Origin: Bacteroidales bacterium
GTDB taxonomy: Bacteria; Bacteroidota; Bacteroidia; Bacteroidales; FEN-979
Reading direction: 5' to 3'
NCBI GenBank assembly: GCA_030681475.1
Contig: JAUXWT010000021.1
Coordinates: 1 to 41,806 of the forward strand
Length of the DNA: 41,806 nt
A program made the position numbers and the translations under genes. This document shows, in pieces, positions 2,229-9,609 of the stretch (position 1 is the first letter of the stretch; the number at the start of each line of letters is the position of its first letter). The notes beneath the pieces are model-generated. The model was not told the DNA's origin and made no database searches. It saw only the letters and a list, made by a program, of their open reading frames with translations.

Positions 2229-4478
2229 CTATTGAAAGTGCACCAGCGAAAACCACCGATAGGCATCAGTATATATATCTTTTATCCGCAGGCCGGTTGT
2301 CTCTGCCATTTGTTGAATATGACCGGGAGTGTATTTATAAGAGTTCTCCGTATGTATTGTTTCATTTTTCTGTAACCTGATTTTTCCATTCAGGTGCGGA
2401 CTCCCGATCTCCATATCCGTCAGGGCTTTGAGGTGCATTTCTATTCTGGCTTCTGAAATGTTATAAAATGCAAAGTGCGCAAAATGGTCAGGGTTGAAAC
2501 CGGTACCGGCATAATGGTTTACAACGTTCAGTATGTTTTTATTAAATGCAGCCGTTTTGCCTTGCCGGTCGTTATAGGCCTCTTCCAATATTTTTATTTC
2601 CTTGACCATATCCAACCCGATCAGAAGTTGGTCACCTGGTTGCATCATTGTTTTCAAGTTCTTTAAAAAGCCGGTTTCCTGCTTCCCGGTAAGATTCCCC
2701 ATCGTACTGCCAAAAAAACAGATCAGCTTCTTTCCTTCCCCGGGAATCACGTTAAAAGGCTTCATAAAATCGGTCAGGATGCCGTTTATTTTAATCCCGG
2801 GATATTTTATGGAAAGCTTTTCCGCTGATTTCACGATGGCAGTTCTGCTGACATCTACCGGGATATAACGCAAAGTTTCCAAACTATCTGCAGGCAAAGT
2901 GTCCAGGAGAATTGAAATTTTTGAGCAATCTCCGCTACCTAATTCGATTATTTCCGTCAAACCTGAGCTGTTCAGGATTTGCGGAGCGAATTCAGTCAGA
3001 ATAGATTTTTCTGTTCTTGTGGGATAGTATTCGGGGAGCCTGGTAATTTCTTCAAAAAGCGCTGAGCCGGCCTTATCGTAAAAAAACCGGCTCGAAATAT
3101 ATTTTTGCTGAGCTGATAGGCCGCATATTATTTCAGATCTGATTTCTTCAGGGCGTTCATGCAATAAATAATCATTGACTTCCATTTTATCCTCAGGAAT
3201 TCCGGTTTCAACCGGGTTATCCGGGTTGCTGCTCCATTCAAACCAACCTCCGTCATACACCGAAACCCTTGGCCATCCCATCAGCCAGGCGTTGAACCAG
3301 GCTTCGCTGCCGCGCCATCCTGTTCCGCAATAAAATGCGAGATGCTTGTCGGGGGTAATGCCAACGTTTTTCCAGATCTCCGCTATTTCATGAAATTCAC
3401 GATTTGTTTGATCGAAATTCCTGTAATTCTCCATGTGGTAGGCATCAGAACCACAATCGGCGAAAATTGCCCCTGGTATCCTTCCTTTTTTTTCGATATA
3501 GTTATAACCGCTCACTTCGCCAAGGTATTCCGGCCAACTGCGAACGCAAACCAGTTCGGAACCTGGCGAGGCAATGATATCCCTGGCTTCAGGTGTGTCA
3601 ACAGCAAGTTCGGGATGCACAGGTATCGTTGCGCCAAATTTTGAGACGGGATTTTTAGGTTCATCGGTATATAAAATTTCATACCCCGCATCCTGCCACG
3701 ACTGAAAACCTCCATTGAGCACCCTGACATCTTTCACACCGGCATACATCATCACAAAGGCACATCGCACAGCGCCTATATCGCCGGCTGCACTGCCCGG
3801 AAAAGGGTCGTTGTTATCGGGCGACATGTATTTTCCATACATAATAACGGTGGTATCTGAAGTAATACCATGATCCTCCAATGCTTTTTTAAGTTCTTCA
3901 GGACTTCTTCTGTTCCATGTTTCAGGTGATTCAATGGCCAGGGTATCCATGTCAATGGCCCCCGGGATGTGTCCGCTCAGGTAAGCTTCCCGGTTTCGGT
4001 AATGGGCATGAACGACAATGTATTTATCGTTTTCATAATGTGACGGGATTTTACCTGAGATAAGCGTGTTGAGCCATTGCGCTGAGACCAGGTTCCGAAA
4101 CCGGGCCAAATGCTGCATGGGAAGGTCAGGGTTTTCCGACCATTCTTCAGAAAACCGATTGTAAACGGATACATTGGAATATCCTGATTTTATAAAACGG
4201 GTTGCCACTTTTCCTGAATCAATTTCATCATAACCGTAAACAATGATTTCATGTTCAGGAAATATCTGCTTATGCCTGACCATTTCAATCCAATCCATAT
4301 ATGTCGTCCATTTAACCGGCAGGCTTTTTGCGTTTTTGATATGTCCGCCACGGCGTTCTTTCTGCAACCGCCATCCGTTATATGCATCTGCGGGCCTTAC
4401 GTCGATGATCTTTATGTCAGGCTTATCCAGCAGAATCAAAAGTTCGCCGGTGGAGATTTCATGAAAAGAGTTAACCAT
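2229..4478 (-). CDS. eanB-eanA: three-rhodanese sulfurtransferase fused to EgtD-type histidine methyltransferase (EanB-EanA-like)
   Basis: Predicted cytosolic bifunctional enzyme of ergothioneine synthesis. Residues 1-125, 130-275 and 290-425 are rhodanese-like. The first two lack a Cys in the active loop (IIVYGYDE, VIMYGKYM). The third has the full loop YCGTGWRG with Cys384. Residues 440-749 are an EgtD/EanA methyltransferase: LPEYYPTRTE (481-490), SAM motif IELGSGDCSK (511-520), VDVSR, FFGSTMGNL with Asn595, and the histidine-binding pair Glu711/Ser713 in HTENSYKY, matching the EgtD Glu-x-Ser. In the known two-protein pathway of green sulfur bacteria, EanA trimethylates histidine to hercynine and EanB moves persulfide sulfur to the imidazole without oxygen. 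Order here is sulfurtransferase first. No EgtB-type oxygenase gene is nearby. Family assignment is firm; ergothioneine as the product is inferred. Confidence 0.88.
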   Translation of the reverse strand: MVNSFHEISTGELLILLDKPDIKIIDVRPADAYNGWRLQKERRGGHIKNAKSLPVKWTTYMDWIEMVRHKQIFPEHEIIVYGYDEIDSGKVATRFIKSGYSNVSVYNRFSEEWSENPDLPMQHLARFRNLVSAQWLNTLISGKIPSHYENDKYIVVHAHYRNREAYLSGHIPGAIDMDTLAIESPETWNRRSPEELKKALEDHGITSDTTVIMYGKYMSPDNNDPFPGSAAGDIGAVRCAFVMMYAGVKDVRVLNGGFQSWQDAGYEILYTDEPKNPVSKFGATIPVHPELAVDTPEARDIIASPGSELVCVRSWPEYLGEVSGYNYIEKKGRIPGAIFADCGSDAYHMENYRNFDQTNREFHEIAEIWKNVGITPDKHLAFYCGTGWRGSEAWFNAWLMGWPRVSVYDGGWFEWSSNPDNPVETGIPEDKMEVNDYLLHERPEEIRSEIICGLSAQQKYISSRFFYDKAGSALFEEITRLPEYYPTRTEKSILTEFAPQILNSSGLTEIIELGSGDCSKISILLDTLPADSLETLRYIPVDVSRTAIVKSAEKLSIKYPGIKINGILTDFMKPFNVIPGEGKKLICFFGSTMGNLTGKQETGFLKNLKTMMQPGDQLLIGLDMVKEIKILEEAYNDRQGKTAAFNKNILNVVNHYAGTGFNPDHFAHFAFYNISEARIEMHLKALTDMEIGSPHLNGKIRLQKNETIHTENSYKYTPGHIQQMAETTGLRIKDIYTDAYRWFSLVHFQ

Positions 4479-7677: not shown

Positions 7678-7749
7678 TTCCCCGCCGCTTGCGGCGAATG
7701 AAAATAATTCCCGATGATACCCCGCTGCTCTGCGGCGGGGAGGTTCATT
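7663..7749 (+). repeat. 87-bp hairpin-rich insertion (REP/MITE-like)
   Basis: The insert is defined by the propeller repeat it interrupts: the codon for Asn ends at 7662 and the unit resumes with TTT ACC at 7750. It contains three hairpins: CGGGG/CCCCG (7669-7684), CGCCGC/GCGGCG (7683-7696), and a nine-pair stem from CCCCGC to GCGGGG (7720-7740). Its GC-rich ends are inverted relative to each other (CCCCGCCGC near the left, GCGGCGGGG near the right). No target-site duplication is obvious. The length is a multiple of three, yet it brings an in-frame stop. A REP-associated transposase lies at 29312-30013, but its own palindrome is of different sequence. Confidence 0.7.
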
Positions 7750-9609
7750 TTTACCGAAAAAGAAGGTTTAGGCAATAATGAGGTCAGAAGTATATTATGT
7801 GATAAAGATGGGAACATTTGGTTCGGAACCAATGGTGGTGTAACAAAATTCAAACCTTCTGAAAAGCCCGAAACAGGTTCCGGGTTTTATACTCATTACA
7901 CCGAAACAGAAGGGTTATCCAATAATAATATAATGTCTGTTTTAGAAGACCAGCGTGGAAATATTTGGTTTGGCAGTTCCGGCGGTGGCTTGACAAAATT
8001 CGACGGAAAATTCCTCACTTGTTTCACCAAAAAAGAAGGCTTGTGCGATAATGCAGTAATGTCTGTTTTGGAAGACAAAAACGGGAACCTTTGGATAGGT
8101 ACTTCCACGGGTATCAGTAAACTTATTAAAGAAACAAATGATGAGTTAGCTGACAATAAATATAGAAACCAGAGCCGTGGGTCAGGGATGTTTAAAAACT
8201 ATACTTATGATGACGGGTTTTATGGTGTGGGTTGTAACAGCAATTCCATATGTGAAGATAATACTGACGCTATATGGATCGGTGCAAACGACAGGCTTAC
8301 AGTTTACCACCCCGGAGTAATGGATGTGGATACGATTGCCCCAAACATTAAATTGGTGGGCATAGATTTATTTAATGAACAATTTTCCTGGGAAGGCGCT
8401 GAGAGGAATAAAGATACAAGCATAGTTTTGAGCAATGGGGTAATTGCAGGCAACATTAAATTTGATGGATTATCAAAATGGTACTGTATCCCTGAAAATT
8501 TAAGTTTACCATACGATGTTAATTTTCTCACTTTTAATTTTATTGGCATAACCACTAAAGCAGCACAGAAAGTAGCATACAAGTATAAATTAGATGGATT
8601 AGGGCAAAACTGGAGCTCCACTACAAACCAAACGAGCGCCTCTTTTGGCAACTTATCGCACGGAGAATATACCTTCAGGGTAAAAGCAATGAATGGCGCT
8701 GGCTATTGGAGTAAAGAATATAGATACAACCTTACAATTCGTCCGCCATGGTGGAAAACAAACTGGGCTTATTTGTTATATACCATGGGATTTATTGCAG
8801 GGATTTTTTGGGTTGACCGTATCCAAACTCAAAGGGTAATCGCAAGAGAACGTCGACGGACCAGAGACCGGGAATTGGAACAAGCCCGTGAAATTGAAAA
8901 GGCCTATCAGGCATTAAATTTGCAACATGAAATTGTAGCAAAACAAAATGACGAACTGGAAATAGAAAAAAAATGCAGTGATGAATTGCTGCTTAATATC
9001 CTCCCGTCAGAAGTTGCTGAAGAATTGAAAGCAAAAGGCTACGCAGATGCAAAACTTATTGACGAGGTCACCGTGCTCTTTACCGACTTCGTCGGATTTA
9101 CCCATCTTACCGAACAACTTTCTCCAAAACAACTGGTAGCAGAAATTCACCATTGTTTCTCTGCATTTGATAATATCATACATAAACACGGAGTGGAAAA
9201 AATCAAAACCATTGGCGATTCTTATATGGCAGCAGGTGGTCTTCCGACACCCAACAATAATCACGCAATTAACACGGTTAAAGCAGCATTGGAAATACAA
9301 CATTTTATGGAAAGACACAACTATAGAAAAAAAGTTGCAGGGGAACCCTTTAGTGAAATACGTATCGGTTTGCATTCAGGTGCGGTAATTGCCGGAATTG
9401 TGGGGGTGAAAAAGTTTGCTTACGACATTTGGGGCGATACTGTAAATACTGCAAATCATATAGAACAAAGCGGTGATGCCGGAAAAGTAAACATCAGTGG
9501 GGAAACTTATAAAGTTATCAAAGATAAATTTGATTGCGCCTATCGGGGAAAAATATTGGCAAAGAACAAAGGAATGATCGATATGTATTTTGTAAATAAT
9601 TCTGTATGA
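7714..9609 (+). CDS. C-terminal half of the disrupted sensor: propeller, Y_Y_Y, adenylate cyclase
   Basis: The ATG at 7714 lies inside the inserted element, so residues 1-12 are not native. Four further Reg_prop units follow, then a Y_Y_Y domain (about 264-345), one membrane span (WAYLLYTMGFIAGIFWV, about 351-367), a charged coiled coil, the linker LLLNILPSEVAEELK and a class III nucleotide cyclase domain (450-631). Metal ligands Asp458 and Asp502 are present. Lys498 and Asp571 are the pair that selects ATP over GTP. The transition-state Asn578 is present, but the usual Arg is His582. The ancestral protein would sense a periplasmic signal and make cAMP. Without the N-terminal half there is no export signal, so this half is probably non-functional. 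Confidence 0.85.
   Translation: MIPRCSAAGRFIFTEKEGLGNNEVRSILCDKDGNIWFGTNGGVTKFKPSEKPETGSGFYTHYTETEGLSNNNIMSVLEDQRGNIWFGSSGGGLTKFDGKFLTCFTKKEGLCDNAVMSVLEDKNGNLWIGTSTGISKLIKETNDELADNKYRNQSRGSGMFKNYTYDDGFYGVGCNSNSICEDNTDAIWIGANDRLTVYHPGVMDVDTIAPNIKLVGIDLFNEQFSWEGAERNKDTSIVLSNGVIAGNIKFDGLSKWYCIPENLSLPYDVNFLTFNFIGITTKAAQKVAYKYKLDGLGQNWSSTTNQTSASFGNLSHGEYTFRVKAMNGAGYWSKEYRYNLTIRPPWWKTNWAYLLYTMGFIAGIFWVDRIQTQRVIARERRRTRDRELEQAREIEKAYQALNLQHEIVAKQNDELEIEKKCSDELLLNILPSEVAEELKAKGYADAKLIDEVTVLFTDFVGFTHLTEQLSPKQLVAEIHHCFSAFDNIIHKHGVEKIKTIGDSYMAAGGLPTPNNNHAINTVKAALEIQHFMERHNYRKKVAGEPFSEIRIGLHSGAVIAGIVGVKKFAYDIWGDTVNTANHIEQSGDAGKVNISGETYKVIKDKFDCAYRGKILAKNKGMIDMYFVNNSV

Follow-up and report, generated by a model that had tools for sequence, protein, structure and literature searches.

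An EanB-EanA-type fusion in a Bacteroidales genome, a probable one-polypeptide route to ergothioneine without oxygen

Introduction

A gene in the draft genome of a Bacteroidales bacterium raises the question of whether the oxygen-independent route to ergothioneine, which C. limicola divides between the two proteins EanA and EanB (Clim_1148, Clim_1149), can be carried by a single polypeptide. The gene lies on the minus strand of the window, by which we mean the whole stretch of 41,806 nucleotides that was analysed, and an earlier note had read it as an EanB-like rhodanese joined to an EgtD/EanA-like methyltransferase. In this study, we find one uninterrupted frame whose two halves belong to the families of EanB and EanA, with catalytic residues intact, and we find that the arrangement recurs in other genomes. 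On these sequence grounds the protein is very probably a naturally occurring bifunctional enzyme that covers every step of ergothioneine synthesis without oxygen.

Results

The open reading frame runs from 4478 to 2229 on the minus strand and has 749 codons, an ATG start and zero internal stops, in agreement with the reading as one polypeptide. Its features are as follows.

2229..4478, minus strand: fused eanB-eanA gene, 749 codons, stop codon at 2229-2231
3192..4463, minus strand: EanB-like part, residues 6-429, three rhodanese modules (C. limicola EanB match, Pfam, Foldseek)
3504..3506, minus strand: codon of Tyr325, equivalent to the acid/base residue Tyr353 of EanB (alignment; the Y353F entry 6kw0 has F here)
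3327..3329, minus strand: codon of Cys384 in module 3, equivalent to the persulfide-carrying Cys412 of EanB (alignment to EanB)
3312..3323, minus strand: codons of Thr386 to Arg389, equivalent to Thr414 and Arg417 of EanB (alignment to EanB)
3162..3191, minus strand: linker, residues 430-439 (10 residues), pLDDT below 50
2232..3161, minus strand: EanA/EgtD-like histidine methyltransferase, residues 440-749 (TIGR03438, PF10017, EgtD 4pim at 222.5 bits)
2340..2348, minus strand: codons of Glu711 and Ser713, equivalent to Glu282 and Ser284 of EgtD (alignment to EgtD)

A Pfam scan of the protein gave Rhodanese in three stretches (139.2 bits), matching the three modules described earlier, and Methyltransf_33 (PF10017) at residues 447-748, nearly full length (profile 2-302 of 304, 335.1 bits). 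These were the sole domains at E 0.001, and a sulfoxide synthase (EgtB-like) domain was absent from the chain. The fused gene is the one Methyltransf_33 match in the source draft genome (4.24 Mb in 111 contigs, 98.67% complete, 0.48% contaminated). When the gene was compared with those of L042, L040 and L066, differences at third codon positions were about 2-5 times those at first and second positions in both halves, a pattern that fits a protein under selection.

The rhodanese half is closest to EanB. Residues 6-429 matched the C. limicola EanB chains of the PDB with 683 bits (E 4.6e-204), the second-best family being YnjE with 297 bits, and the printed alignment counts 286 of 424 residues (67%) as identical to C. 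limicola EanB. The catalytic loop FYCGTGWRG with Cys384 is confined to module 3, as the earlier note had it; the equivalent loops of modules 1 and 2, which follow the model strands 77-81 and 210-215, read YGYDE and YGKYM. EanB numbering equals that of the fused protein plus 28 (hand-counted and checked on the Y353F and T414A chains), so that Tyr353, Cys412, Thr414 and Arg417 correspond to Tyr325, Cys384, Thr386 and Arg389. All four are kept, and none of these four columns varies among the 113 EanB-like rows; the apparent invariance of M1 in the same alignment stems from the few sequences that reach that column. According to studies of EanB, the Cys412 persulfide is the sulfur carrier, Tyr353 is the acid/base, Thr414 orients the substrate and Arg417 stabilises a carbene intermediate in calculations (PMC10903977, PMC9103826).

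These residues are not diagnostic for EanB because E. coli YnjE shares them: it too carries the Tyr and the CGTGWR loop, hence the Cys, Thr and Arg, and we therefore rejected the conserved Tyr, Cys and Arg as proof of EanB activity. The assignment of the sequence to EanB rests instead on overall similarity, tree and linkage. In the tree, 28 EanB-like rows, which include the window protein as well as C. limicola EanB, split from seven outgroup rhodaneses with support of 100/99 (the outgroup comes from Enterobacterales, Aeromonas, Fusobacteriota and Clostridia; three members are long branches and one is partial). This placement speaks against a YnjE/TST-type sulfurtransferase, a reading that we rejected, and answers the worry that the rhodanese part might group with thiosulfate sulfurtransferases of other function.

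The methyltransferase half scored 348.8 bits against TIGR03438 (egtD_ergothio), the EgtD equivalog model, whose cut-off is 290.9, and the domain is complete, as had been claimed. With a hand-counted, two-residue chain offset, Tyr39, Tyr56, Asn166, Tyr206, Glu282 and Ser284 of EgtD correspond to Tyr467, Tyr484, Asn595, Tyr635, Glu711 and Ser713, all of which are kept; their roles in the histidine pocket are described in the EgtD literature (PMC8593015). Among 77 EanA rows, the Glu711 column has E in 74 and the Ser713 column has S in 73, the remainder being gaps. The proposed Glu711/Ser713 histidine-recognition pair was thereby recovered, and both the equivalog score and the intact pocket speak for an EgtD-type enzyme, against the doubt that the methyltransferase acts on another substrate. 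There is also a second EanA type, 31-36% identical to that of the window, which accounts for 36 of the 77 rows and is paired with EanB (e.g., L058, L089 and L107); it keeps the Glu/Ser pair in 35 of 36 rows, with one gap. None of the fused proteins carries it, the EanA part of all eight sharing 43% identity or more with that of the window.

Structure prediction, which the earlier note had proposed alongside profile searches for comparing the two parts with EanB and EanA/EgtD, led to the same two families. The AlphaFold2 model, built on a 52-row alignment that includes partial rows, has a mean pLDDT of 89.5 and a pTM of 0.63. C. limicola EanB entries fill Foldseek ranks 1-14 (TMt 0.96-0.98; rank 1 is 6h98 at 0.98), followed by YnjE at ranks 15-18 and EgtD at ranks 19-33 (TMt 0.89-0.93). 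Residues 430-439 are the sole stretch with pLDDT below 50. In the predicted model, both folds are complete and are tethered by a linker without confident structure, and their mutual placement is left unfixed. The other fused proteins have different linkers, the extremes being L042 with hardly any and L006 with about 35 residues.

The proposed survey of the architecture across genomes was run within Bacteroidota, where other phyla entered only as stray named hits and plasmids; it found the fusion to be recurrent and also rare. In the window's family, 8 of 43 genomes matched, six with a single frame (G000, G007, G009, G015, G018 and G020) and two split (G011 and G016). The order sample comprised 393 genomes, 51 of which gave a match at 1e-70; ORF analysis found three single frames (G000, G007 and G054) among the 30 loci listed, and for the remaining 21 matching genomes the call was based on the match table alone. 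The phylum sample gave 18 matches in 395 genomes at 1e-120, with a single frame in one of the 18 loci, the window's own, and the class sample gave two matches in 395, the second spanning residues 3-429 within a frame of 435 residues. Among the best 80 of 391 named relatives, five were single frames (L040, L041, L042, L044 and L068). Because L040, L041, L042 and L044 repeat G018, G020, G007 and G054, with identical EanB parts, the distinct genomes with the fusion number at least eight: six in the window's family, G054 and the source of L068. The fusion is therefore not peculiar to the source genome, as at least seven others have one-frame fusions. One of these, L044 (G054), is a single frame with a partial EanA (q5-221), the frame departing from EanA homology close to the contig end, no more than about 70 bases from it.

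Several candidates were set aside. Locus ORF analysis resolved into two ORFs each both the open frames of 781-881 residues in G323, G385, G417, G811, G579 and G696 and the read-through matches in G418, G305 and G486. G227, G124 and G131 (816-1019 residues) were called split solely from stop codons inside the matches. None of 212 matching plasmid records held at least 80% of the query in one place, and a PADLOC search gave no result.

How the fused gene relates to the usual pair was examined in 113 EanB rows, which are best hits rather than a random sample and represent 112 genes, that of L066 being present twice (L010 is a shortened copy). Eight rows are fusions, in 69 EanA is encoded by an ORF of its own, and for the other 36 no EanA ORF above 120 bits was present in the DNA examined, which for many of these loci included only about 1.5 kb of flank. 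Every one of the 69 split rows has both genes on one strand with eanB first, the distance between them being up to 150 bases in 57 and more in 12 (measured on stop-to-stop frames); the order is the same at L049, from a Chlorobium metagenome genome. Since eanA is found downstream on the same strand in all of them, and so close in most, the fused proteins would have come from the joining of an existing adjacent pair.

Two separate genes are found in the closest relatives, L066 and L067. In the sister L066, the eanB frame continues past GIPEHKMEIIPNIKC to two stops, and eanA starts in another frame before NYLVHVSNEDIVAEIF; a run of N lies near the end of eanB, and we count the locus as split because the two in-frame stops and the frame change sit beyond that run. 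At the window junction, GIPEDKME passes directly into VNDYLLHERPEEI (VNDYLLHE) without the intergenic stretch of L066, which fits a deletion that took out that stretch. As a side observation, L067 comes from a contig titled Deltaproteobacteria, and its eanB and eanA nest inside the Bacteroidota window clade, so that the contig is either misbinned or the genes were transferred.

The fused state needs five changes on the 113-row EanB tree and likewise on a joined EanB and EanA tree of 40 rows, which omits L010. A single clade of all fused sequences was rejected (p-AU 0.0002), L068 standing apart, and so was a clade of the five fused sequences of the window clade that leaves out L066 and L067 (p-AU 3e-5). 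Joining L006 and L007 to the window clade was not rejected (p-AU 0.086), and a smaller EanB tree places L006 within it with support of 85/65. All these p-AU values are optimistic because the groups were chosen after a tree had been seen. The fusion probably arose more than once. The trees allow either two or more independent origins or a single early one followed by several splits, the latter not favoured by parsimony, and L066 and L067 may have lost the fusion.

The seven genes scanned beside the window fusion encode T9SS-sorted PKD proteins, a DUF4136 protein, propeller/cyclase proteins, an AAA/DUF4143 protein and one unmatched product, and no known ergothioneine gene was found among them. 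The product of 7714-9609 combines an adenylate/guanylate cyclase catalytic domain with regulator propellers and a Y_Y_Y domain.

Across 71 named loci (50 split, 5 fused and 16 without an EanA ORF), a protein of the betaine-choline-EgtU superfamily that combines a permease with a substrate-binding domain occurs at seven, directly after eanA in five. The best solved relative of its binding domain is 8dp6 (284 bits), which we take to be H. pylori EgtU, the record itself being named only Osmoprotection protein. We regard this protein as a likely ergothioneine carrier; the role is likely rather than shown because the binding domain gives up to 207 bits with choline- and nicotine-sensor binding proteins, against 163-170 bits with the chains named Ergothioneine transporter EgtUC. 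A search for it in the source genome, run without a positive control, gave no match, and the ABC ATPases at the fused loci L041 and L042 are set apart from any such permease.

A flavin disulfide reductase is present at four of the 71 loci and lies between eanB and eanA in three (L088, L075 and L096); one may speculate that it might recycle ergothioneine disulfide. At L088 (1101-7444), eanB, the flavin disulfide reductase and eanA lie ahead of genes for an EgtU-like permease/binding protein and its ATPase, and L075 is arranged likewise. A DUF427 protein occurs at 22 of the 71 loci, within 300 bases of eanB or eanA and on the same strand in 16 (e.g., L043:7620-7970, L088:1101-1415 and L116:5778-6089).

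Discussion

It seems that the fused protein would act in two steps. The C-terminal EanA part would use three SAM to trimethylate L-histidine at its alpha-amino group, and the product would be hercynine. In the N-terminal EanB part, Cys384 would be loaded with sulfane sulfur from polysulfide or persulfide, and Tyr325 would activate the hercynine imidazole for transfer of the sulfur to C2, yielding ergothioneine. The EanB-clade placement, the EgtD equivalog score and the intact pocket support the overall reading of the earlier note, an EanB-EanA-type fusion. Moreover, one report describes ergothioneine made in Bacillus by an EanA homologue from a Bacteroidales bacterium together with an EanB homologue from Anaerobacillus (PMC11767532). 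One point against the pathway reading comes from another report, in which the major thiols found in the Chlorobiaceae under test did not include ergothioneine (PMC6282198).

Both halves might be active while the sulfur transferase serves another or an additional heterocycle, the product then not being, or not only being, ergothioneine. The 36 of 113 EanB-like rows without a nearby EanA ORF above 120 bits, many of them with only about 1.5 kb of flank, could be taken this way. However, the window sequence sits within the clade of C. limicola EanB, and its covalent partner is a histidine-specific methyltransferase whose product is the known substrate of EanB, which makes this account quite improbable. 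That the fusion is an artefact of assembly or sequencing over a true two-gene operon we judge very unlikely indeed: the nearest relatives are split and the source is a draft in 111 contigs, but more than a frame slip would be required to produce a junction that lacks the intergenic stretch of L066, and at least seven other genomes have one frame with differing linkers.

The earlier note had also suggested that the fusion might channel hercynine, and nothing was seen in support of this. A closed channel from EanA to EanB could be imagined for sequential enzymes in one chain whose fused state is scattered over the trees with five changes. Yet linker length and sequence vary among the fused proteins, the linker pLDDT below 50 and the pTM of 0.63 indicate no fixed interface, and the kinetics of the separate enzymes point the other way, so that we consider such a channel improbable. 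For C. limicola, the published rates are 3.8 per min for EanA and 0.5 per min for EanB (PMC11767532). A 1:1 fusion would therefore make hercynine faster than it is used, and a substrate that accumulates rather than being scarce argues against a need for channelling. The gain of fusing the two enzymes would instead lie in a fixed 1:1 dosage, one transcript and co-location through a flexible tether, without a sealed channel.

The preferred reading, that of an EanB-EanA-type bifunctional enzyme, can be set beside known systems. C. limicola EanA and EanB belong to the same two families and have the same catalytic residues, and they are two proteins, whereas the window has one polypeptide with EanB at the N-terminus. 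E. coli YnjE shares the three-module fold, the Cys loop and the equivalents of Tyr353 and Arg417; it differs in its 42% identity over 377 aligned columns, its position outside the EanB clade and the lack of a methyltransferase in its chain. Fungal Egt1 is likewise a single protein that couples histidine methylation to the following step of ergothioneine synthesis; in its chain the methyltransferase comes first. Egt1 is termed bifunctional in the literature, its second activity being a cysteine-using sulfoxide synthase that is followed by the lyase Egt2 (PMC11993508). In contrast, the second activity of the window protein is that of a rhodanese, predicted from sequence to need neither oxygen nor a lyase. 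Oxygen-independent sulfuration of hercynine is also described for MES, the metallopterin-dependent ergothioneine synthase of Caldithrix abyssi, a two-module protein; unlike the window protein, MES belongs to an unrelated enzyme class, uses cysteine as donor and has a separate methyltransferase (PMC9516567).

In the portions of the open-licence EanB literature available, we found no EanA-EanB fusion; the fusions mentioned there concern other proteins only (MES, GshF, OvoA/OvoB and solubility tags), and the founding EanB papers may mention one. The fusion appears to be a genuine though modest variant of a known pathway, for which relatives usually carry two neighbouring genes.

Taken together, we think it likely that this single polypeptide is a complete oxygen-independent synthase, one that converts histidine into ergothioneine and that arose on more than one occasion in Bacteroidota from the eanB-eanA pair, an anaerobe counterpart of fungal Egt1. 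Such a protein would offer a one-gene route from histidine, SAM and sulfane sulfur to ergothioneine, which may be of use in engineering, and the presence of natural fused and split versions inside one genus gives a ready comparison of what is gained by fusing sequential enzymes. A fused enzyme of this kind would also bear on the question of why anaerobes would make an antioxidant.
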